From Elioraea tepida (lineage in GTDB: Bacteria; Pseudomonadota; Alphaproteobacteria; Acetobacterales; Acetobacteraceae): a stretch of 64,000 bases of DNA. Shown here piece after piece: positions 36,269 through 61,531 of this stretch. Each line of letters begins with the position of its first letter. The stretch's first letter is position 1. Under the pieces are notes generated by a model. It was not told where the DNA came from, made no database searches, and was given only the letters and a program-made list of their open reading frames with translations. The position numbers and the translations under genes are program-made. The stretch is from assembly GCF_019203965.1 (NCBI RefSeq), contig NZ_CP076448.1, positions 2,557,001 through 2,621,000 on the forward strand, in the 5' to 3' direction.

Positions 36269-37387
36269 ATGGATGCCACGCCCACGCCGGACCTCGCGGC
36301 CTGGACGGACTCGTATTTCAGCCGCACGCGCAGGATCGTCGAGCGCTTCGGCGACACGCGCGTCACCTACGCTGTGTTCCTCCGCCGCCCCGTTCTGATG
36401 GCGGCGCGCCTTGCCATCGAGTGGCTTCGCTCTGTGCGCGGCGAGTCGGTGGTGATCGAGCCGATGTACGAGGAGGGGGCGGAGGTCGGCGCGGGCGAGC
36501 CGCTCCTCTATCTCACGGGAAGCTTCGCCGCTCTCGCCGAGACAGAGACGCTGCTTCTGCAGCGGCTCGGGCCGCCCTGCGTTGCGGCATGGAACGCGCG
36601 CGAGATGTGCCTCGCCCTGCCGGATGTTGCCTTTCTCGCGATGGACGCGCGTCACTGCGCCGGAACCGAAATGGCCGAGCTGATGGCCTACGCCGCCTCG
36701 GTCGGCTCGCGGGCGGCTCAGGCGAAAGGGGCGAAGGGCTTCATCGGCAACGCCACCACCGCGACGGCCCATTATTTCGGGCGCGATACTGGGCTCGGCA
36801 CGATGCCGCATGCGCTGATCGGCTATGCCGGCTCGACGCTGCGCGCGGCCGAGATGTTCGTCGAGACCTTCCCTGGCGAACCGCTCACCGTTCTCGTCGA
36901 TTATTTCGGAGCGGAGATCACGGACGCGCTCGCCGTCTGCCGCCGGTTCCCGTCGATGGTGGCGGAAGGCAAGCTCGCCTTCCGGCTCGACACGCATGGC
37001 GGGCGGTTCCTCGAGACGCTCGACCCGGCCGCCTCCTACGCGGTGCTCGAGCGGCATGCGCCCGAGGCGATACGCCGCTACCGCTCGGAGGAGGAGCTGC
37101 GCTGGCTCGTCGGCACCGGCGTGTCTGCGGCCGCGGTGTGGCGGTTCCGCGAGGCGCTCGACGAGGCGGGGTTCAGCAGTGCCAAGATCGTCGGCTCCTC
37201 CGGCTTCTCGGTGGCGAAGTGCCGCATCATGGCAGAGGCACGGGCGCCGCTCGACGTCGTCGGCACTGGCTCCTTCCTGCCCGAGGCGTGGAGCGAGACT
37301 TACGCGACCGCCGACATCGTCGCCTATGACGGCATCCCCCGCGTGAAGGTCGGGCGGGAGTTCCTGCTTCGCCGGCCGGGCGCGTGA
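36269..37387 (+). CDS. pncB: Nicotinate phosphoribosyltransferase (PncB-like)
   Basis: Preiss-Handler salvage enzyme that converts nicotinate + PRPP to nicotinate mononucleotide. 372 residues. Features: the N-terminal TDSYFSRTRRIVE, the EGAEVGAGEPLLYLTG strand, the phosphoribosyl region FIGNATTATAHYFG with GTMPHALIGYAG, and the C-terminal catalytic-domain LDTHGGRFLETL and SGFSVAKC segments. It sits between the DAHP synthase and a DMT exporter, about 2 kb upstream of nadE, which acts later in the same route. Confidence 0.88.
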   Translation: MDATPTPDLAAWTDSYFSRTRRIVERFGDTRVTYAVFLRRPVLMAARLAIEWLRSVRGESVVIEPMYEEGAEVGAGEPLLYLTGSFAALAETETLLLQRLGPPCVAAWNAREMCLALPDVAFLAMDARHCAGTEMAELMAYAASVGSRAAQAKGAKGFIGNATTATAHYFGRDTGLGTMPHALIGYAGSTLRAAEMFVETFPGEPLTVLVDYFGAEITDALAVCRRFPSMVAEGKLAFRLDTHGGRFLETLDPAASYAVLERHAPEAIRRYRSEEELRWLVGTGVSAAAVWRFREALDEAGFSSAKIVGSSGFSVAKCRIMAEARAPLDVVGTGSFLPEAWSETYATADIVAYDGIPRVKVGREFLLRRPGA

Positions 37388-37390
37388 GCG

Positions 37391-38290
37391 GTGCAGGGCG
37401 GGAAGGCCGCGCGCGAGCAGCGCCTCGGCTTCGCCTGCGCCTTTCTCGTGCTGTTCATCTGGTCTGGCTTCATCCTGGCAAGCCGCGGCGGCGCGACCGG
37501 GGTGCTCACGCCGTGGGATCTCGCCGCTCTCCGACATGTCGTCTCGTTCGCGGTGCTCGCGCCCTTCGCAGGCGGCGGGGTGCTCGGTCGCCTCTCCTCG
37601 CGCCGGGCGGTGGCGCTCGCCGGCTTCGCTGGGCTCGGCTTCCCGCTCTGCGCCTATGCCGGGTTTGCGCTCGCGCCCGCGGCGCACGGGGCGGTTCTGC
37701 TTCCCGGGGCTCTCCCCTTCGCCACCGCGCTGGTCGCGAGGCTCTGGCTCGGCGAGCGTGTGGGGAGGGAGAGGGCGCTGTCTCTTGCCATCGTGTTAGC
37801 TGGCATCGCGCTGATCGCAGGCGCCGACTTCTTCGCCGCGTCTGGAGCCTGGCGCGGCGATTTCCTCTTCCTCGCCGGCACCACCTCCTGGGCTGTGTTC
37901 ACCCTGCTCGTTCGGCACTTGGGGGTCACCGCGCTTGAGGCGACCGTCGCCGTTGGCACCGTCTCTGCCCCGCTTTATCTGCCCGTCTGGGCGCTTGCCC
38001 TGCCCTCGCGGCTCGATGATGCGGCCTGGGGCGAAATCGCGTTCCAGGGGGCTTACCAGGGCGGGCTTGCAATGGTGGTCGCCTCGCTGCTCTACACGCG
38101 CGCTCTCGTCGCGCTCGGGCCCACGCGGCTTGCCTTCTTCACCTCCGTGGTTCTTGCGCTTGCGGCCGTCGCCGCCTGGCCGATCCTCGGCGAGCCGCTC
38201 GGGCCTCTCGCCTCCGTCGGCGTCGTCCTGGTCACGGCGGGGATGCTGTTCGGGGTCCTGCGTGGTTCGGGCCGCACCCCGGCGCGTTGA
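37391..38290 (+). CDS. DMT-superfamily (EamA) permease
   Basis: 299-residue ten-helix transporter with two EamA repeats. The first opens with FLVLFIWSGFILASRG, the second with FLFLAGTTSWAVFTLLVRHLG. Members export amino acids or other metabolites; the substrate here is unknown. GTG start at 37391, 3 bases after the pncB-like gene, so it may be cotranscribed with it. The C-terminal WPILGEPLGPLASVGVVLV is the typical helix-10 region. Confidence 0.85.
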   Translation: MQGGKAAREQRLGFACAFLVLFIWSGFILASRGGATGVLTPWDLAALRHVVSFAVLAPFAGGGVLGRLSSRRAVALAGFAGLGFPLCAYAGFALAPAAHGAVLLPGALPFATALVARLWLGERVGRERALSLAIVLAGIALIAGADFFAASGAWRGDFLFLAGTTSWAVFTLLVRHLGVTALEATVAVGTVSAPLYLPVWALALPSRLDDAAWGEIAFQGAYQGGLAMVVASLLYTRALVALGPTRLAFFTSVVLALAAVAAWPILGEPLGPLASVGVVLVTAGMLFGVLRGSGRTPAR

Positions 38291-38321
38291 CGCTGCCCAA
38301 GGCCGAACCTAGCTTCCGCCC

Positions 38322-39986
38322 ATGCCAGAGACGCTTCGCATCGCGCTAGCGCAGATCAACCCGCACGAAGGCGAGGTGGAGAAGAACGCCGCGCGCATCC
38401 GCGCCGCGCGCGCCGAGGCGGCGGCGAAAGGGGCCGATCTCGTCGTCACGCCCGAGCTCTCGATCGCCGGCTACCCGCCCGAGGACCTGATCCTCAAGCC
38501 CGCCTTTCTCGATGCGTGCGACGCGCGGATCGCGGCGCTCGCTGCCGAGACCGCCGATGGCGGCCCGGGCCTGATCGTCGGCGGGCCGTGGCGGAGCGAG
38601 GGCAGGCTCTACAACGCCGCGTTTCTGCTCGAAGGGGGGCGGATCGTGACCGCGCGCGCCAAGCACGAGCTTCCGAACTACGGGGTGTTCGACGACAAAC
38701 GTCATTTCGCACCCGGTCCAGCCCCTGGGCCCATGGTGTTTCGTGGCTTCCGCATCGGGCTGATGATCTGCGAGGACTGGTGGTTTCCCGCCGTGTGCGA
38801 GACTCTCGCGGAAAGCGGGGCGGAGATGCTGCTCTCGATCAACGGCAGCCCGTTCGAGGCGGGCAAGCAGCACGTGCGCGAGGCGCTCGCCGTCGCCCGG
38901 GTGGTCGAGACCGGGCTTCCCTTCGTGTTCCTCAACCAGGTGTGCGGCCAGGACGAGCTCGTGTTCGAGGGGGCGAGCTTCATTCTGAACGCCGACCGTT
39001 CGCCTGCAGTCCGCCTGCCGTCCTTCACCGAGGCCATTGCCGTGACGGAATGGACGCGCGACGGAGCCCGGCTCGTCTGCGCACCACAGCCGCTGCCGCC
39101 CGAGGAGAGCCGCGAACAGAGCATCTACCGGGCGATGATGCTCGGGCTTGCCGACTACGTGAACAAGAACGGCTTCCCCGGGGTGGTGCTCGGCCTCTCG
39201 GGCGGCATCGACAGCGCGCTCAGCGCTGCCGTCGCGGTCGATGCGCTCGGGCCCGGTCGTGTCCGGGCAGTGATGCTGCCCTCTCCCTACACGAGCCGCC
39301 ACAGCCTCGAGGACGCGGCCGAGACGGCGAGGCTGCTCGGAATCCGCTACGATGTCGTGCCGATCACCGGGGCGATGGCGGCCTTCCACGAGGCGCTCGC
39401 CCCGCTGTTCGGCAACCGCGCCCCCGACATCGCGGAGGAGAACATCCAGTCGCGCTCGCGCGGGCTGATTCTGATGGCCCTGTCGAACAAGTTCGGCGAC
39501 ATGCTGCTGACCACGGGAAACAAGTCGGAGATGTCGGTCGGCTACGCCACGCTGTACGGCGACATGTGCGGCGGCTTCTCCGTGCTCAAGGACGTCTACA
39601 AGACCACCGTCTTCGCGCTCGCCCGCTGGCGCAACGCGCACCGCCCGCCTGACGGCCGGGGGCCGGAGGGGCCGGTGATGCCGGAACGCGTGATCACCAA
39701 ACCGCCGTCCGCCGAGCTGAAGCCGAACCAGACGGACCAGGACACCCTCCCGCCTTACGACGTGCTCGATTCGATTCTGGAAGGGCTGGTCGAGGACGAG
39801 GAGAGTGTCGAGGCACTGGTCGCGCGCGGGCATGACCGTGCAACCGTGCTGCGCGTCTGGCGCATGCTCGACCGTGCCGAGTACAAGCGCCGCCAGGCGC
39901 CTCCGGGCGTGAAGATCACCCGCCGCGCCTTCGGGCGTGACCGCCGCTACCCCATCACCAACGGCTTCACCGGGCTTATCGCATGA
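38322..39986 (+). CDS. nadE: Glutamine-dependent NAD+ synthetase
   Basis: Amidates nicotinate adenine dinucleotide to NAD+ using ammonia from glutamine. 554 residues, two-domain form. The N-terminal nitrilase-type glutaminase has the Glu in TPELSIAGYPPEDL, the Lys in ARAKHELPNYG and the Cys in LMICEDWWFP. The C-terminal synthetase has the PP-loop LGLSGGIDSALS and GNKSEMSVGYATLYGD. Its stop overlaps the start of the following small gene (ATGA). Confidence 0.96.
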   Translation: MPETLRIALAQINPHEGEVEKNAARIRAARAEAAAKGADLVVTPELSIAGYPPEDLILKPAFLDACDARIAALAAETADGGPGLIVGGPWRSEGRLYNAAFLLEGGRIVTARAKHELPNYGVFDDKRHFAPGPAPGPMVFRGFRIGLMICEDWWFPAVCETLAESGAEMLLSINGSPFEAGKQHVREALAVARVVETGLPFVFLNQVCGQDELVFEGASFILNADRSPAVRLPSFTEAIAVTEWTRDGARLVCAPQPLPPEESREQSIYRAMMLGLADYVNKNGFPGVVLGLSGGIDSALSAAVAVDALGPGRVRAVMLPSPYTSRHSLEDAAETARLLGIRYDVVPITGAMAAFHEALAPLFGNRAPDIAEENIQSRSRGLILMALSNKFGDMLLTTGNKSEMSVGYATLYGDMCGGFSVLKDVYKTTVFALARWRNAHRPPDGRGPEGPVMPERVITKPPSAELKPNQTDQDTLPPYDVLDSILEGLVEDEESVEALVARGHDRATVLRVWRMLDRAEYKRRQAPPGVKITRRAFGRDRRYPITNGFTGLIA

Positions 39987-45598: not shown

Positions 45599-45948
45599 TC
45601 CCCCGACGCGCGATGTTCGGCGCACCGCTCTTGATCGCCGGACCGGCGCGGGCGCATTCCGAGTTGCGCTCCTCCGAGCCGGCGAACGGGGCGCGCCTTA
45701 CTTCGCCGCCGGAGATGCTCACGCTCCGGTTCAACGAGGGCGTGTGGCTGACCGCCGTGACGCTGCACGACGAGGCGGGCAGATCGGTCCGGCTGCCGCT
45801 TTCCCGCGACATCACCCCGCGTCCCATCGAGCAGCTCGCGGCACCGGCGCTGGGCACCGGCGCTTGGCGCCTCGAGTGGCGCGCCATCTCGGCCGACGGC
45901 CACCCGGTGCGCGGCACGATCCGCTTCACCATCGCGCCGATGCCATGA
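45595..45948 (+). CDS. copC: CopC-like copper-binding protein
   Basis: Periplasmic cupredoxin-fold protein, about 117 residues with signal peptide. Cleavage after ARA would expose His as residue 1 ([15 protein letters not shown]), the N-terminal histidine that binds Cu(II) in CopC. The conserved Asp/His in SADGHPVRG near the C-terminus complete the site. Methionine-rich Cu(I) motifs of long CopC are absent. The ATG overlaps the DUF305 stop and its own stop overlaps copD. Confidence 0.85.
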
Positions 45949-46849
45949 TCATCGAACTCCTGACACCTGATGCCTCGGCCTGGGACGCGGCAACCGTTCT
46001 GGTGCGCGCCTCCTACTACGCCGCGAGCCTCGGCGCCGGCGGCGTGGCACTGTTCCACGCCGGGTTTGCGCATCGCTTGTTCGAGGAGGATGCGCGTGCG
46101 GTCCGTCGCCTCGCTGCCGGGCTCCGATCGCGGCGATCCTCCTCTCGCTCGTGGCGCTCGTCGTCCATGCCGGAGTGCTCTCGGGCGGGGGGGATCTCCT
46201 TGCCGCCCGGCTCTGGGAGGCGATTCTCGCCTCGCGGATCGGCGATGCGTTCTGGATCCGGCTCGCCGGCCTCGCCGCGATCGCGCTGCTTGCCACATCT
46301 TTCCCGATCGCCCCCCCTCTCGCGGTCGCAGGCGCCTTCGCCGTCTGCGCATCGTACGCGGCGATGGGCCACTCGATGCTCTACCGGCCACGGCAGGAGA
46401 TCGCCGCCCTTCTCGTTCTCCATCTCGCGTGCGTGTCGTTCTGGGTCGGCTCGCTCTTGCCGCTCACGCGGCTCGCCCGCGGGCGTGATCTCGAGGCGCC
46501 GGCGATCCTCGCGTCCTGGTCCCGGCTCGCGCGGCCGATCGTCCTCGTGCTCGTCGCCTCCGGCATCACGCTCGCTGTGCTGATGGTGCGGCGGCTCGAT
46601 CTGCTCTACGCGACCGCCTATGGCTGGGGGCTGACGGTCAAGATCCTGCTCGTCGCCGTGATGCTCGCACTCGCGGCGCGCCATGCCTTCGTTCTGGTTC
46701 CTGCCGCCGCGCGCGGCGAGCGTGGCGCGGGCGAACGCCTTGCGGCTCGATCCGACTCGAGGCGGGGGTTGGCGCTCCTTGTGTTCTGGGCGGCGGCCGA
46801 GATGGTCCCGATCCACCCGCTCGATGCCGGGCACCGTATTCCGAGCTGA
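45945..46849 (+). pseudogene. copD: CopD-like copper-transport membrane protein, frameshifted
   Basis: CopD partner of CopC, proposed to move copper across the inner membrane. The first frame runs from the ATG at 45945 (overlapping the copC stop) to about 46119, with the first helix and AGGVALFHAGFAHRLFE. From 46121 the protein continues in another frame (APIAAILLSLVALVVHAGVL), through the remaining helices to 46849. The gap closes if one G is restored in the GGG run at 46119-46121. A real loss of function or a one-base sequencing error are both possible. Confidence 0.82.
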
Positions 46850-48001: not shown

Positions 48002-48991
48002 ATGTCCGTCCGCCGCTCCCTCTTCGCCATCGCCGTGTTCGGCTCTGCCAGGCTTGCTCCCGGACTCACGCCCGCGGCGGCGCAGGCTCCGTTCCGCCTC
48101 GGCCATGTCCTCTCCGAGAGCCATTCCTGGCACGTCAACGCCACTGGCTTCGCGCAGGAGGTCGAGCAACGCACGTCCGGGCGCGTGAAGATCCAGGTCT
48201 TCCCCGGTGGCCAGCTCGGCGCCGAGACTCGGGTGATCGAGGGGCTGCAGCTCGGTTCGGTGTAGATGGGCCTGATCGGTGCCGGATCCTTCCAGACGAT
48301 CGAGCCGAGGATGGGGATCGTCGAGCTGCCCTACACGTGGCCCTCTCGGCTGCATGCCTACCGTGCCTATGATGGCGAGCTCGGCGCGGCGCTCGCTCGC
48401 CTGATGGAAGCGAAGAACATCGTCATCCTCGCGTGGTGGGAGACGGGGCTTCGGCACGTCACGACGCGTGACCGTGTGGTGCGCACGCCGGCCGACCTGC
48501 GCGGCCTCAAGATCCGCGTCACACCGGACCGGATGCGCCTCGAGACCTTCAAGGCTTTCGGAGCGGAGCCTGCACCGCTCGCCTTCGGCGAGCTCTATTC
48601 GGCGCTCCAGCAGGGGGTGTTCGACGCGCAGGAGAACCCGCTGTCGATCATTTGGTCCGCGTCGTTCTACGAGGTGCAGAAGCATCTCTCCCTCACCGGC
48701 CATGTCTATGGCCCCGCCGCGCTCGCGATCTCGCGCAGCGCCTTCCAGCGCCTCTCTCTCGATGACCAGGCGGTCCTTCGTTCCGCGGCCGTGACCTGGG
48801 GCGGGCGGCAGCGTCTTGACAGCATCCGTGCGGACGAGGCGGCGATCGAGCAGCTCAAGGCGAAGGGGATGACCGTGACGGAGGTCGACCGTGCCCCCTT
48901 CATCGCCGCCGTGCGGCCGGTGTGGGAGGAGTTCGGCCGGCTCTATGGGCCGGAGCTGATGGGCCTGCTCGAGAGCTATCGCAACCGCTGA
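48002..48991 (+). pseudogene. dctP: TRAP receptor DctP with in-frame amber codon
   Basis: Periplasmic receptor of a TRAP transporter. The first 87 codons encode a signal peptide and LGHVLSESHSWHVNA, ending at a TAG (48263-48265) in QLGSV-TAG-MGLIGAG. The same frame then continues to 48991 with the carboxylate-binding LRGLKIRVTP and GELYSALQQGVFDAQENP. A GAG or GAC codon is expected at that site, so one base change explains the stop. dctQ and dctM downstream are intact. TAG ends other genes here (glmU, the TspO-like gene), so reassignment is unlikely. Confidence 0.88.
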
Positions 48992-56284: not shown

Positions 56285-58093
56285 CTAGGCCGCTCTCGCT
56301 CTCCTCCACACCGAGGCAAGCGCGACGACGGAGAGAACCGCACCGATCAGGTCCGTCAGCGGATCGGGTGCGATCAGGGCAAGCCCGGCAAGGAGAAGCA
56401 GCACCCTCTGAGCGGAGGATAGAGCGCGGCCGAGCCAGCCCTCGAACCCGGCGGCAAGCGCGACGACGCCGGCAAGCGTGACGAGCAAGGCCGAGGCGAT
56501 GCCGAGCAATTCGCCAAGGAGCAGAAGGCCAGGGCGGAACACGAAACAGAACGGCAGGGCGAAGGCGACAATGGCGAGCCGGCAGGCGATCAGCCCGATC
56601 CGGATCGGGTCAGCCTGAGCGATCGAGGCGGCGGCGAAGGCAGCCACAGCCACGGGCGGCGTGATCGCGCTCATCGACGCGTAGTAGACGACAAAGAGGT
56701 GGGCGGCGAGCACCGGCACGCCGAGAGCGATCATCGCGGGCGCGGCGAGCGCGGCCGCGAGCACGTAGGCCGCGGGCGTCGGCATGCCCATGCCGAGCAG
56801 AAGCGTGACGCCGGCGGTGATCAGCATCACGAACAGGATCTGGTCGGGCGCGAAACCGAAGAGCAGCGAGGAGAACTTGCCGGAGAGATCGGTGATCGTG
56901 AGCGTGCCGACGACGAGCCCGGCAACACCGCAGGCGATGCCGACCGGCGCCGCACGGCGCGCCCCGTCCGACGCCGCCGCGAGCAGGCGAAGCGCGACCT
57001 CGAGCGGGTTGCGGAGCATCAGCGGCGCGAGCACGGCGGCGATCACGACGGCGAGCGCACCGCCGTAGACCGGACGATCGGCCGACAGCACGAGCCACAC
57101 CATCGCCGCGATCGGAACGAGGAACCACCCGCCGCGGCGCATCACCTCCGCCACGCGCGGCCCCGCTCCCTCGAAGGCGCCGAGCCGGTCGAGCACCGCG
57201 CGGGCATGCACCTGATAGAACACGGCGACGTAGTAGAGCGCCGCGGTGGCGATTGCCGAGACGGCGATGTCGGCATAGGCGATTCCGGTGAAGTCGCTCA
57301 TCAGGAATGCCGCCGATCCCATCACGGGAGGCAGGATCGCCCCGCCCGCGGACGCCGCGGCCTCGACGCCGCCCGCATAGGCGGGCGCGCAACCGAGGCG
57401 CTTCATCATCGGGATCGTCAGGCTGCCCGTGGTCACGACATCCGCTGTCGGTGAGCCGGAGATCGTTCCATACATCGCCGAGGAGACGACCGCGACCTTG
57501 GCCGGCCCCCCCGCCTGGCGGCCGACGAGGGCGCCGGCGAGATCGTGGAAGAAGTCGCCTCCGCCGAGCCTGTCGAGTACCGCGCCGAACAGAACGAAGA
57601 CGAACACGAGGAAGGCGGCGACCGAGAGCGCGGGGCCGATCAGCCCGTTCGTGGTGAACACGAGATGGTCGAGGATCTCGGTGAGGCTGAGCGGCCGGTG
57701 CGAGAACGATCCGGGAAGGTGATGACCCCAGACAGCATAGGCGAGAAAGGAAGCGACCAGCAGGCAGAGGGTGAGGCCGATCGTCCGTCGCGTCGCTTCG
57801 AGCACGAGCAGGCAGAGCAGGATCGCCGCCGCCATGTCGGCCTCGGTCAGCGGGCTGACCATCGGCCAGCGCAGCGCATGCCGCGGCGCCATCCAGACGA
57901 AGTAGCCGCTCGCGGCGAGCGACAGAGCCGCAAGGGCGTTCGCGGTCCATGATCGGTTGGTCGGCCGGAGCGCGTTGCCGGTGACGGTGAGGAAGCCGAG
58001 CGCGAGCACCGCGCCGAGGAAGGCGAACAGCGTGGCGTAGCGGTCGCTCTCGACGCCGAGGGCGAGCGCCAGCATCCATCCCGAAAGCCCCAT
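56285..58093 (-). CDS. TRAP transporter fused permease (TAXI-associated)
   Basis: Large fused DctQM-type permease that works with TAXI receptors. At least 602 residues with many helices. The permease block holds [46 protein letters not shown] and [23 protein letters not shown]. The ATG at 58093 is the first standard start, but the same frame stays open upstream, encoding ELPPAEAAIAACLG, back to a CTG overlapping the TAXI stop (58174-58172). The real start may be that CTG, or a lost GTG. Confidence 0.88.
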
Positions 58094-58170: not shown

Positions 58171-59160
58171 TCAGGAGAGCAGCCCCGCGGCCCGGTAGGC
58201 CGCGGCCGCCGCCGGGTGCAGCGCCACGCCGCCCGTATCCGGCAGCGCCTTCGGCTCGAGCCGCGCCATGGTCGCGTGGCTGCGCTTGATCGCGTCGAAA
58301 TTGGCGATCATCGCCTTCACGATCGCCTCGACCATCGCGTCAGGCGTTTCCGCACTGGTGATCAGGATCACGTGCGCGCGGAACGTCTCGATCGGGTCGG
58401 GCTGGAACGGGTAGCTGTTCGCCGGGATGGTGATCGGGGTCGAACCGAGACGCGCGTTGACCTTGGCGATGACGTCGGATCCGGCCTTGAGGAAACGAAC
58501 GCGAAGCTCGCGCGTGGCGTTGATCACCTGGCCCGAGGGGAAGTCGACCACGTTGGTGATGATGTCCACCTGGTTGTTCTTGAGCATCTCGAGTGCATCG
58601 TTCCACGCGACGTAGTGCACCCTGCCGCCCCAGCGCTCGATCTGCGGCAGAGGCGCTCCGGCAGCAGCGAAGGCCTCCTCGGTCGCGAGCGCCATCAGCG
58701 TGCCGCGGAGATTGGCGGTGACGCGCACGGGAGCGCGCCTCTGGGCGATCTCCTCGAGCGAGGACACGGGAGCGCCCTCTCGCACCAGCGCCTGCCAGGC
58801 CGCCTCGCTGTCGATCAGGCTGACCGCGCGCACGTTCGGCATCGCCCGCTCGAACGGTGGCTCCCCCTTGATCGCCCGCAGCGCGATCTGCGCATGCGCG
58901 AGCCCGAGCTGGACCCGCCCCTGCGCCACGAGCAGCACATTCGCGGCATCGCGCCCGGGCTCGTAGCTGAAGGCCGAGCCGGGCACGGCGCGGCGTATGC
59001 TCTCGCCGATCGCATTGCCGATCGCGCTCCACGCTCCGCCAACGGAGCCGCCGGCGAGCGTGATCCGCATCGTCTCCTGGGCGGCGAGCCTGGGCGCGCC
59101 CAAGGGGACGGACGCAGCGGCGGCCATGCCGAGAAGAACACCTCGTCGCATCACCATCAT
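58171..59160 (-). CDS. TAXI-family TRAP solute receptor
   Basis: Periplasmic receptor that delivers substrates to the fused TRAP permease encoded next. 329 residues from ATG 59160 (GGGAGACC upstream), signal peptide ending near RLAAQ. The TAXI signature appears as ITLAGGSVGGAWSAIGNAIGESIRRAVPGSAFSYE, with GRVQLGLAHAQIALRA and the C-terminal HPAAAAAYRAAGLL. Known TAXI ligands include glutamate and other carboxylates, but this one is undetermined. Confidence 0.92.
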   Translation of the reverse strand: MMVMRRGVLLGMAAAASVPLGAPRLAAQETMRITLAGGSVGGAWSAIGNAIGESIRRAVPGSAFSYEPGRDAANVLLVAQGRVQLGLAHAQIALRAIKGEPPFERAMPNVRAVSLIDSEAAWQALVREGAPVSSLEEIAQRRAPVRVTANLRGTLMALATEEAFAAAGAPLPQIERWGGRVHYVAWNDALEMLKNNQVDIITNVVDFPSGQVINATRELRVRFLKAGSDVIAKVNARLGSTPITIPANSYPFQPDPIETFRAHVILITSAETPDAMVEAIVKAMIANFDAIKRSHATMARLEPKALPDTGGVALHPAAAAAYRAAGLLS

Positions 59161-59183: not shown

Positions 59184-59741
59184 CTACGCCGCGCGCGGCG
59201 CGAGCCGTTTTGCCACCGCCTCCAGGGCGGCGGGAACGTCCGGCAGGACCGACCACGCCCCCTCGACCTCGGGCCGAAGCACGCCGCGCGCGCGTAAGCC
59301 CTCCATCATCCGCACGAAGTCCCGCCAGAAACCGTCGACGTCGATGAACAGCGTCGGCTTGCGGCTAAGTCCGATATCGTACCAGGTGATCATCTCGAGC
59401 GCCTCGTCGAGCGTTCCGACACCTCCGGGCAGGACGAGGAACAGGTCGGAGAGGTCTGCCATCCTCTGTTAGCGTTCCGCCAGCGTCTCGACGAGATGGA
59501 GTTCGGCGATGTCGCTCGCCATGCGCTCTCGCCCGACGAGGTGTCGCGGCATCACGCCGATGACGCGCCCGCCGGCCGCCACCGCGCCTCTTGCCGCCGC
59601 TCCCATCAGCCCGCGCGACGACCCGCCATAGACGAGGGTGTGTCCGAGCCGGGCGAGGCCCGCCCCGGTCGCCTCCGCCGCTTCAAGGAGACGCTGCGGC
59701 AGGGAATCATTCGCCGAAGCAAACAGGCCGACCGCCCCCAC
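59184..59741 (-). pseudogene. LOG-family phosphoribohydrolase with in-frame TAA
   Basis: LOG-type cytokinin-riboside-monophosphate phosphoribohydrolase-like protein, 185 codons. The first part (GLFASANDSLPQRLLEAAE, YGGSSRGLMGAAA) ends LVETLAER at a TAA (59469-59471). The same frame continues QRMADLSDLFLVLPGGVGTLDEALE, holding the catalytic PGGxGTxxE. A Lys, Glu or Gln codon is expected at the stop. The gene starts at GTG 59741, 3 bases after nadC. It is complete apart from that one codon, so either recently inactivated or a sequence error. Confidence 0.88.
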
Positions 59742-59744
59742 GCC

Positions 59745-60600
59745 TCAGCCCCCTGCCTCGATGGTCGCATCGAGGCCGATGTCCACTGGAGGCGCCCCCT
59801 GGGTGAGCCGCCCGACGCTGATGAAATCCACGCCCGTCTCGGCGATCGCACGGATCGTCTCGAGCGTCACGCCACCGGAGGCCTCAAGCGGCACCCGCCC
59901 CGCCACCAGCGTCACGGCCTCGCGCAGCATCGGCGGCGTCATGTTGTCGAGCAGGATCACGTCCGCCCCCGCCGCGACCGCTTCGGCGACCTGGTCGAGC
60001 CGGTCGCATTCGACCTCGATCTTCGTCAGAAGCGGCGCGGCGGCGCGGGCGCGCGCCACCGCCGCCGTGATCGAGCCGCAGACGGAGATGTGATTGTCCT
60101 TGATCATGATGCCGCCGGCGAGATCGAGCCTGTGATTGCGCGCCCCGCCGACGGTGGTGGCGTGCTTCGATGGCGCGCAGGCCGGGTGTGGTTTTGCGCG
60201 TGTCCACGAGCACTGCCTTGGTGCCGGCGATCCGCTCGACATGGCGGCGCGTGTGTGTCGCGATCGCCGACATGTGGGCAAGCAGGTTGAGGGCGGTGCG
60301 CTCGGCCGTCAGCAGGGCCCTGGCCGGGCCGGTGACGGTCGCGAGCGCCGTTCCCGACGCTGCGGTCGCCCCCTCCGCGATCGGTGCGTCGAAGCTGCAT
60401 GTCGGCGCGCGGGAACGAAACACCGCCTCGGCCACGCCGAGGCCGCAGACGACGATCGGGTCACGAGTGCGCAAGACGAAGGTCGCACGCGCCCCGGCCG
60501 GGATCACCGTCTCGCTGGTGAGGTCGATCGCCCCGATGTCTTCGGCGAGTGCCGCCTCGACGATCCGGTGGACAGCCCCCCACTCGAGCACCGACGGCAC
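59745..60600 (-). pseudogene. nadC: Quinolinate phosphoribosyltransferase NadC, frameshifted
   Basis: Converts quinolinate and PRPP to nicotinate mononucleotide in de novo NAD synthesis. The first frame encodes AALAEDIGAIDLTSETVIPAG through VDTRKTTPGLRAIE (to about 60168). The rest, KHATTVGGARNHRLDLAGG and GIMIKDNHI through ETGVDFISVGRLTQG, is in another frame. The two join if two bases are restored, as in ATCGAGAAG losing one GA. All catalytic segments are present on either side. The start at GTG 60600 is preferred; GTG 60642 is an alternative. Confidence 0.87.
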
Positions 60601-60652
60601 CCCCGATTGTTCGTATGCGTATGAGAAGTGTGAGCCTCCCACGCCCGGGCCG

Positions 60653-61531
60653 TCAACGCCGCCCGAGGCGACGTGGCATCAGCGCGATGCCGTTGCCCAA
60701 CGCAACGAGCAGGGCGCCGGCGATCGCGCTCATCGACCAGCGCCAGTCCTCGACCAACGATGACTGGATCAGGGAGAGCACCGGAACGACGACGAGCACA
60801 TAAGCGGCCCTGTCGGCGCCGATGCGCGCCTGCAGGGTGAAGTAGCAGAAGAACGACAGGATCGAGACGGCGAGCGACTGGAACGCGAGCGCGGCGAGCC
60901 AGGGCAGGCTCGGCGGGATGGCTATCCCCTGGCCGCGCGCGAGGGAGACGGCGGCGGCGAACACCCCGCCGATCACGAGACCGTCGGCGATCACCGCGAG
61001 CGTTGGCAGCCGCGCGCGGGCGTTGCGAACCGCCGCCATGTTCGCGCACGCGACGACGCAGGAGCCCGCCACGGCGAGCAGGACGCCGCGCCAGGCCCCG
61101 CTTCGCCCGAGCGAAGACCATTCCGGAGCGAAGACGAGCGCGAGCCCAGCCGCCGCGACCGCCGCGCCTGCGACCACCGCACCGCTGACCGGCGTGCCGA
61201 ACAACGCCCGCAGGCCGAAGGCGTTGAGCGGGATCACCATGGCGACGATCACCGCGACAAGGCCCGAGGCAATGAACGCCACCGCCTCGTAGAAGATTAG
61301 GTTGTTGATCGCGAACAGGCCAAGCCCTTGGGCGGCAACAAAGGGCAGGTCGCGCAAGGGGAAGCCGCGATGGCGGCCGCTTGCGCGCAGCCAGGCCTGA
61401 AGCAGGGCGCCGGCGAGGAGGAGCCGCCAAGCGACCGCAGGCCCAGCCGGCGCGATCTCCACCTGCACCCGGATGGCAGCCCAGCCCAGCGCCCAGAGAA
61501 CGGCGGTGACGGAGAAGAGGAGGGCGTTCAC
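60653..61531 (-). CDS. DMT-superfamily (EamA) permease
   Basis: 292-residue ten-helix transporter with two EamA domains (first from FSVTAVLWALGWAAIRVQVE, second from WRGVLLAVAGSCVVACANMAAVR). The helix-4 segment AINNLIFYEAVAFIASGLVAVIVAMVIPLNAFGLRAL is typical. It is probably an amino-acid or metabolite exporter, substrate unknown, and lies upstream of nadC on the same strand. Paralogous to the DMT protein at 37.4 kb only at family level. Confidence 0.85.
   Translation of the reverse strand: MNALLFSVTAVLWALGWAAIRVQVEIAPAGPAVAWRLLLAGALLQAWLRASGRHRGFPLRDLPFVAAQGLGLFAINNLIFYEAVAFIASGLVAVIVAMVIPLNAFGLRALFGTPVSGAVVAGAAVAAAGLALVFAPEWSSLGRSGAWRGVLLAVAGSCVVACANMAAVRNARARLPTLAVIADGLVIGGVFAAAVSLARGQGIAIPPSLPWLAALAFQSLAVSILSFFCYFTLQARIGADRAAYVLVVVPVLSLIQSSLVEDWRWSMSAIAGALLVALGNGIALMPRRLGRR

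Follow-up and report, generated by a model that had tools for sequence, protein, structure and literature searches.

The window analysed here, 64,000 nucleotides of the Elioraea tepida genome (contig NZ_CP076448.1, positions 2,557,001 to 2,621,000), carries the nicotinamide adenine dinucleotide (NAD) salvage genes pncB and nadE and, some 20 kb away, a broken nadC that is followed by genes for a LOG-family phosphoribohydrolase-like protein and a TAXI-type TRAP transporter (Table 1). An original prediction, made from this DNA alone, held that pncB and a glutamine-dependent nadE are intact, that nadC is frameshifted, and that the strain would consequently rely on nicotinate salvage in place of de novo synthesis. 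We confirmed the state of all three genes; as set out below, however, the broken nadC most likely belonged to a gene row for the use of quinolinate and not to de novo synthesis.

Table 1. Features of the window discussed in the text (window coordinates)
Feature	Coordinates	Strand	State and remarks
pncB-type nicotinate phosphoribosyltransferase	36269..37387	+	intact, 372 aa; NCBIfam matches under curated cut-offs
Presumed EamA/DMT-like transporter, between pncB and nadE	37391..38290	+	present in both congeners too
Glutamine-dependent NAD synthetase nadE	38322..39986	+	intact, 554 aa
CopD-like gene after CopC	about 45864-46849	+	one base missing near 46.1 kb relative to G001
DctP TRAP binding protein	48002-48991	+	in-frame TAG at 48263; CAG in both congeners
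Fused TRAP permease	56285..58093	-	intact; Pfam DctM 262.5 bits against 23.8
TAXI-family TRAP solute-binding protein	58171..59160	-	intact; TIGR02122; putative start at 59160
LOG-family (TIGR00730) phosphoribohydrolase-like gene	59184..59741	-	in-frame TAA at 59471-59469
nadC, C-terminal frame	59745..60281	-	TIGR00078 positions 132-268
nadC, N-terminal frame	59884..60642	-	TIGR00078 positions 2-141; out of frame past ~60167
EamA-family transporter upstream of nadC	60653..61531	-	also in both congeners

The broken nadC, its neighbours and the salvage genes

A DNA alignment with two congeners (G001 and G002) showed that the E. tepida nadC (59745-60642, minus strand) is split into two frames by a two-base deletion near 60167, at a short two-base repeat with no homopolymer. 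Both pieces scored below the 198.4-bit cut-off of TIGR00078 (126.2 bits for the N-terminal and 173.0 bits for the C-terminal piece), while the intact genes of the congeners scored 320.2 and 327.6 bits; the closest named nadC among the matches listed was that of an Elioraea metagenome-assembled genome (MAG), with 89% identity over the C-terminal part. Searches of the whole genome (one contig, 3,367,643 bases) returned just these two pieces and thus no second nadC, a possibility the original prediction had left to be checked. Between the congeners synonymous change in nadC far exceeded non-synonymous change (w of 0.127–0.208), so there the gene is maintained by selection. We saw no relaxed selection on the E. 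tepida pieces, which keep 34 of the 37 invariant residues covered by the N-terminal piece (the other three lying past the break) and all 58 of those covered by the C-terminal piece; as their non-synonymous change does not exceed that of intact genes, the break is either recent or an error.

The LOG gene next to nadC is broken as well, an addition to what had been reported for this DNA: E. tepida has an in-frame TAA where both congeners read AAG, and in both of them (loci L008 and L111) the gene is unbroken. Among proteins of solved structure, those closest to it are cytokinin riboside 5'-monophosphate phosphoribohydrolases. The transporter genes that follow are open, the binding protein scoring 121.9 bits against TIGR02122 (cut-off 84.35). 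The Elioraea order is EamA, nadC, LOG, TAXI binding protein and fused permease, of which nadC-LOG-TAXI is common to both congeners, the available G002 locus stopping inside the binding-protein gene. TAXI genes also adjoin nadC in Salinicola lusitanus (L033), in a Pseudolabrys sp. (L035, divergently) and in G464 (L186), in three different arrangements.

Of the two salvage genes, the nadE product scored 804 bits against NCBIfam NF010588 (cut-off 479). All eight NCBIfam matches of the pncB product were to nicotinate phosphoribosyltransferases, each under its cut-off (the best 109.2 bits against 378), so that its name is a family-level call; profile matches included the structures 2i14 (1.1e-6) and 2f7f (9.5e-6). 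The gene is widespread in our sample of 60 genomes, 36 of them from the family Acetobacteraceae and some incomplete: orthologues with 62–87% identity occur in 39 other genomes (40 of 60 counting E. tepida), and 34 of the 36 family genomes have one.

De novo genes in Elioraea and its family

No nadA was found in E. tepida or in any of the three Elioraea genomes, using a search that was positive in 12 of 14 control genomes. The lack of nadA in the genus closes the aspartate route to quinolinate. Since G001 and G002 lack nadA and nevertheless keep an intact nadC, a combination not seen in E. tepida, there was no nadA-based route left for the nadC frameshift to end, and the cause implied by the original prediction is not supported. 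The case from nadB is softer. Three TIGR00551 matches were found in E. tepida (one at C1:269345-270916), the best with 350.8 bits against a strict cut-off of 452.75; these scores resemble those of matches in genomes without nadA and are lower than the weakest matches near a nadA, which lie 50 and 530 bases from it in G010 and G015 (401 and 398 bits). Some genomes that do have nadA (G009 and G028) show weak NadB-like matches only, which is why we lean on nadB less. The only kynurenine gene searched for, that of 3-hydroxyanthranilate dioxygenase (HAAO, PF06052), was absent from all three Elioraea, and was found in 6 of the 60 genomes and none of the 14 controls.

Across the family nadA was present in 12 of the 36 genomes, some of which are incomplete, and was not found in 24; salvage dependence thus looks ordinary in this family. 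A nadC over the cut-off was present in 16 of the 36, including all 12 with nadA, which leaves four with nadC and no nadA (G001, G002, G020 and G021). In E. tepida nicotinate salvage was the only NAD route seen, in searches that did not extend to NadD, nicotinamidase, other salvage routes or nicotinate transporters. With nadA absent and pncB and nadE intact, E. tepida resembles those niacin-requiring bacteria whose NAD comes by way of PncB-NadD-NadE, with no essential difference. Judged by this gene content E. tepida likely depends on nicotinate salvage, the part of the original prediction that survives; that the dependence arose by loss of de novo synthesis through nadC is the part without support. 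The growth tests described for the organism used a medium with yeast extract (PMC8781829), which, apart from what the basal CTM medium may itself contain, is compatible with a vitamin need. The parts of that paper available to us point out that B12 and methionine-synthase genes are missing and are silent on NAD, and PMC6953515 has nothing on NAD.

The NadC relatives and their gene rows

We placed the Elioraea NadC in two midpoint-rooted trees of intact NadC, a quick one with 111 rows and a careful one with 63 hand-picked from those; neither included the pieces from E. tepida. In the careful tree the Elioraea proteins fell within a 17-row group (support 98/92), and a 100/99 branch separated them from five further NadC of the family, of which four are encoded beside nadA or nadB and one is that of G021. 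When neighbours were labelled by genes within 3.5 kb of nadC, or up to the end of the locus where that came sooner (several loci being short), TAXI, PhnN/phosphorylase or LOG adjoined nadC in 12 of the 17 rows, five had none of these (L032, L039, L040, L189 and L190), and in the available DNA none of the 17 had nadA or nadB there. Genomes G064, G069, G070 and G072, as well as G020, lack nadA altogether.

Among the best 80 of at least 530 nadC loci, TAXI lay near nadC in three (L031, from an Elioraea MAG, L033 and L035) and PhnN and/or phosphorylase adjoined it in four (L033, L043, the short locus L045, and L048). A profile made from ten chosen NadC, of which eight have TAXI, LOG or PhnN/phosphorylase as neighbours, matched 344 of 398 Pseudomonadota genomes; its top four matches (G380, G464, G454 and G321) have both PhnN and phosphorylase adjoining nadC and the next 16 loci do not, a biased count in which 20 of the 344 were inspected.

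Two clusters of this NadC type, L033 of S. lusitanus and L185 of its near relative G380, also carry nicotinate-degradation genes. A protein of L185 matched the 6-hydroxynicotinate 3-monooxygenase structure 5eow (E 1.2e-170), alongside a xanthine-dehydrogenase-type 2Fe-2S subunit, a molybdenum-subunit-like protein and a cytochrome c protein whose match to a molybdopterin domain is weak and under the cut-off; proteins of L033 matched the deformylase 4l0c (1.8e-88), the maleate isomerase 4fq7 (1.2e-108) and an isochorismatase-type hydrolase. We take these to be probable nic-pathway enzymes, and in having close matches to the solved monooxygenase, deformylase and maleate isomerase these loci are like the nic clusters. 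A NicC-like protein with at least 50% identity was found in 6 of 17 genomes searched, including the query genome G380, and all six are among the nine with PhnN/phosphorylase beside nadC (G020, G062, G069, G070, G072, G321, G380, G454 and G464); the eight without (G000, G001, G002, G061, G064, G068, G078 and G132) had none, the best match being 41% in G064. These genomes are related, and we claim no significance for the split. Unlike the nic clusters, the three Elioraea genomes gave no NicC-like match at E-values up to 1e-30, in a search restricted to that one nic gene.

A chemical cycle may be proposed for these rows; the phosphorylase models matched in them are those for AMP and thymidine phosphorylases. 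NadC would convert quinolinate and phosphoribosyl pyrophosphate (PRPP) to nicotinate mononucleotide (NaMN) and CO2, the phosphorylase would split NaMN with phosphate into nicotinate and ribose 1,5-bisphosphate, and PhnN would return the latter to PRPP. If we read these genes correctly, a phosphorylase fused to or beside PhnN would thus close a PRPP cycle from quinolinate to nicotinate and CO2 and feed nicotinate degradation, and the gene rows suggest a PRPP-recycling route of quinolinate degradation. In the literature searched, which left subscription journals mostly outside, we found no link between nadC and a nucleotide phosphorylase. More broadly, and with somewhat less than even confidence, we suggest that the rows represent an unrecognised module for quinolinate use, made of a TAXI-TRAP or major facilitator superfamily (MFS) importer, the NadC subfamily and a base-freeing enzyme, either phosphorylase/PhnN or, in Elioraea, LOG, and that this module is decaying in E. 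tepida.

Proposed quinolinate use and its alternatives

We give a probability of roughly 60% to the reading that the Elioraea nadC serves to use imported quinolinate, and that E. tepida lost this use recently, through the nadC frameshift and the LOG stop, and now depends on nicotinate. The separate position of the Elioraea NadC in the tree and the TAXI-TRAP row of the congeners are the reasons for seeing in the nadC loss most likely a loss of quinolinate use, and a recent one, given that nadC is frameshifted and LOG stopped while the transporter genes are intact. In the congeners the TAXI-TRAP system, a candidate quinolinate importer, would bring quinolinate into the cell, NadC would convert it with PRPP to NaMN, and LOG, a relative of phosphoribohydrolases that act on nucleoside monophosphates, would release nicotinate from any surplus. 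In E. tepida PncB would make NaMN from nicotinate, to be used by a putative NadD and then NadE. The loss of a nadC is in itself ordinary, and the surrounding genes matter more.

Orphan-NadC salvage of quinolinate is known from Bordetella and Streptococcus pyogenes, with the quinolinate-binding proteins Bug69 and Bug27, and bug27 orthologues lie beside nadC and phnN (PMC11452294, as far as available to us). Like Elioraea, Bordetella lacks de novo genes, keeps nadC and has a gene for a periplasmic binding protein beside it; Elioraea differs in that its binding protein is of the TAXI-TRAP type and is paired with a permease, and is not a lone TctC/Bug protein, and in the LOG gene in between. A 2024 study reports that in Bordetella pertussis genome context revealed no membrane partner for the import of quinolinate (PMC11452294), whereas the gene rows described here name a complete candidate importer that includes the permease. 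The main text of that paper contains neither the word phosphorylase nor any word in catabol-. TAXI-TRAP uptake of o-phthalate, which we take as the benzene analogue of quinolinate, is reported in a review (PMC13040137, available in part). This importer of denitrifying bacteria is alike in transporter type and in carrying an aromatic 1,2-dicarboxylate; the Elioraea TAXI gene, in contrast, adjoins nadC and not phthalate genes, and its substrate is a prediction. A TAXI-TRAP system linked to quinolinate uptake did not turn up in the same literature, and in the accessible part of PMC12344293 quinolinate appears in the reference list only. The parts that merit a test are the TAXI-TRAP system as a candidate importer and the phosphorylase/PhnN form of the row.

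Several points weigh against our reading. The substrate of the transporter, the action of LOG and the phenotype are read from sequence, and the transporter genes of E. tepida are intact in spite of the broken nadC. In the quick tree 14 of the 17 rows grouped together (support 89), with the Defluviicoccus-type L043, L045 and L048 apart. Moreover, in three Salinicola genomes (G061, G062 and G068) and in G067 the nadC of this group is the only copy found and nadA is present elsewhere, so that the group is not purely for salvage. Finally, nadC is one of two frameshifted genes (with copD) among the ~38 gene places compared with the congeners, and the E. tepida MS-P2 genome, from a Yellowstone hot-spring mat isolate, is described as PacBio Sequel reads assembled with Canu 1.8, the available Methods naming no other read type or short-read correction (PMC8781829).

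These last points bear on the alternative that the frameshift is an assembly error and that E. tepida has an intact nadC and uses quinolinate as its congeners do; the copD frameshift among them is one of a single base, at about 46.1 kb. The idea also gains from the two nadC pieces, which appear to be under selection much like intact genes. We nevertheless consider it unlikely: the stop in LOG is due to base substitutions, and dctP likewise carries a stop codon in place of CAG. A two-base deletion outside a homopolymer is, in addition, not the usual long-read error. The coding-sequence density of E. tepida (3083 in 3.37 Mb, by our own arithmetic) is, moreover, barely below that of the four further Elioraea genomes tabulated in PMC8781829 (Table 3).

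It is quite unlikely, in our view, that nadC, LOG and TAXI stand side by side with no function in common and that the transporter carries another organic acid. In favour of this alternative, LOG is not known as an NAD gene, and TAXI lay near nadC in just three of the 80 loci above. Few TAXI substrates are known and TAXI proteins are described mainly as binding glutamate or glutamine (PMC5812351, seen in part), which also counts against quinolinate as the substrate; the adjacency of nadC and TAXI recurs, however, in three other genomes in differing arrangements, which argues for a connection. We find it improbable that the Elioraea row is catabolic, taking quinolinate through NaMN to nicotinate by means of LOG as a source of carbon and nitrogen: the relatives, whose rows include PhnN and phosphorylase and in two cases nicotinate-degradation genes, would favour this, and the missing NicC-like match in Elioraea, at E-values up to 1e-30 and for the one nic gene searched for, speaks against it. 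That nadC is the final vestige of a nadABC de novo pathway ancestral to the family, as the original prediction implied, is very improbable in spite of the co-occurrence of nadC with nadA in the family and of G021, where a nadABC-type nadC has outlived nadA, since the tree sets the Elioraea NadC apart and neither nadA nor nadB lies beside the nadC of the congeners or, for nadA, anywhere in E. tepida.

The count of breaks rests on ~38 gene places within the window, as a comparison of 120 kb of flanking E. tepida DNA with the congener contigs mapped no place outside it. The scan flagged seven rows at six places, of which three were counted as broken (copD, judged against G001 only, dctP and nadC), LOG being added by direct inspection; we judged those at 26.1, 49.1 and 61.8 kb to be differences in start site or N-terminal extension. 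The DctQ and DctM genes after the broken dctP are open frames with full Pfam matches. The gene between pncB and nadE had no NCBIfam match, and its name in Table 1 is our assumption from its sequence.

Some smaller observations concern the nadC loci themselves. In L189 and L190 (G078 and G132) a nadC of the 17-row group stands beside iron-sulphur-protein-like genes in place of transport genes, presumably of the lactate-utilisation type. A SIR2-like protein is encoded near nadC in four Salinicola-type loci (L033:8494-9660, L185:5482-6690, L032 and L040), with or without PhnN-phosphorylase, the Pfam SIR2_2 match having been checked on L033. A consensus promoter scan of 56-62 kb of the window found none, with 0.3 expected. 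By eye, a TTGAC(A/G) ... CACACT pair, possibly a regulated promoter, can be seen upstream of nadC in all three Elioraea (window about 60600-60657; L008:1400-1460; L111:5605-5665), and the word that follows it, CATACGCATACGAACAATC, is the same in E. tepida as in G002 and changed in G001.

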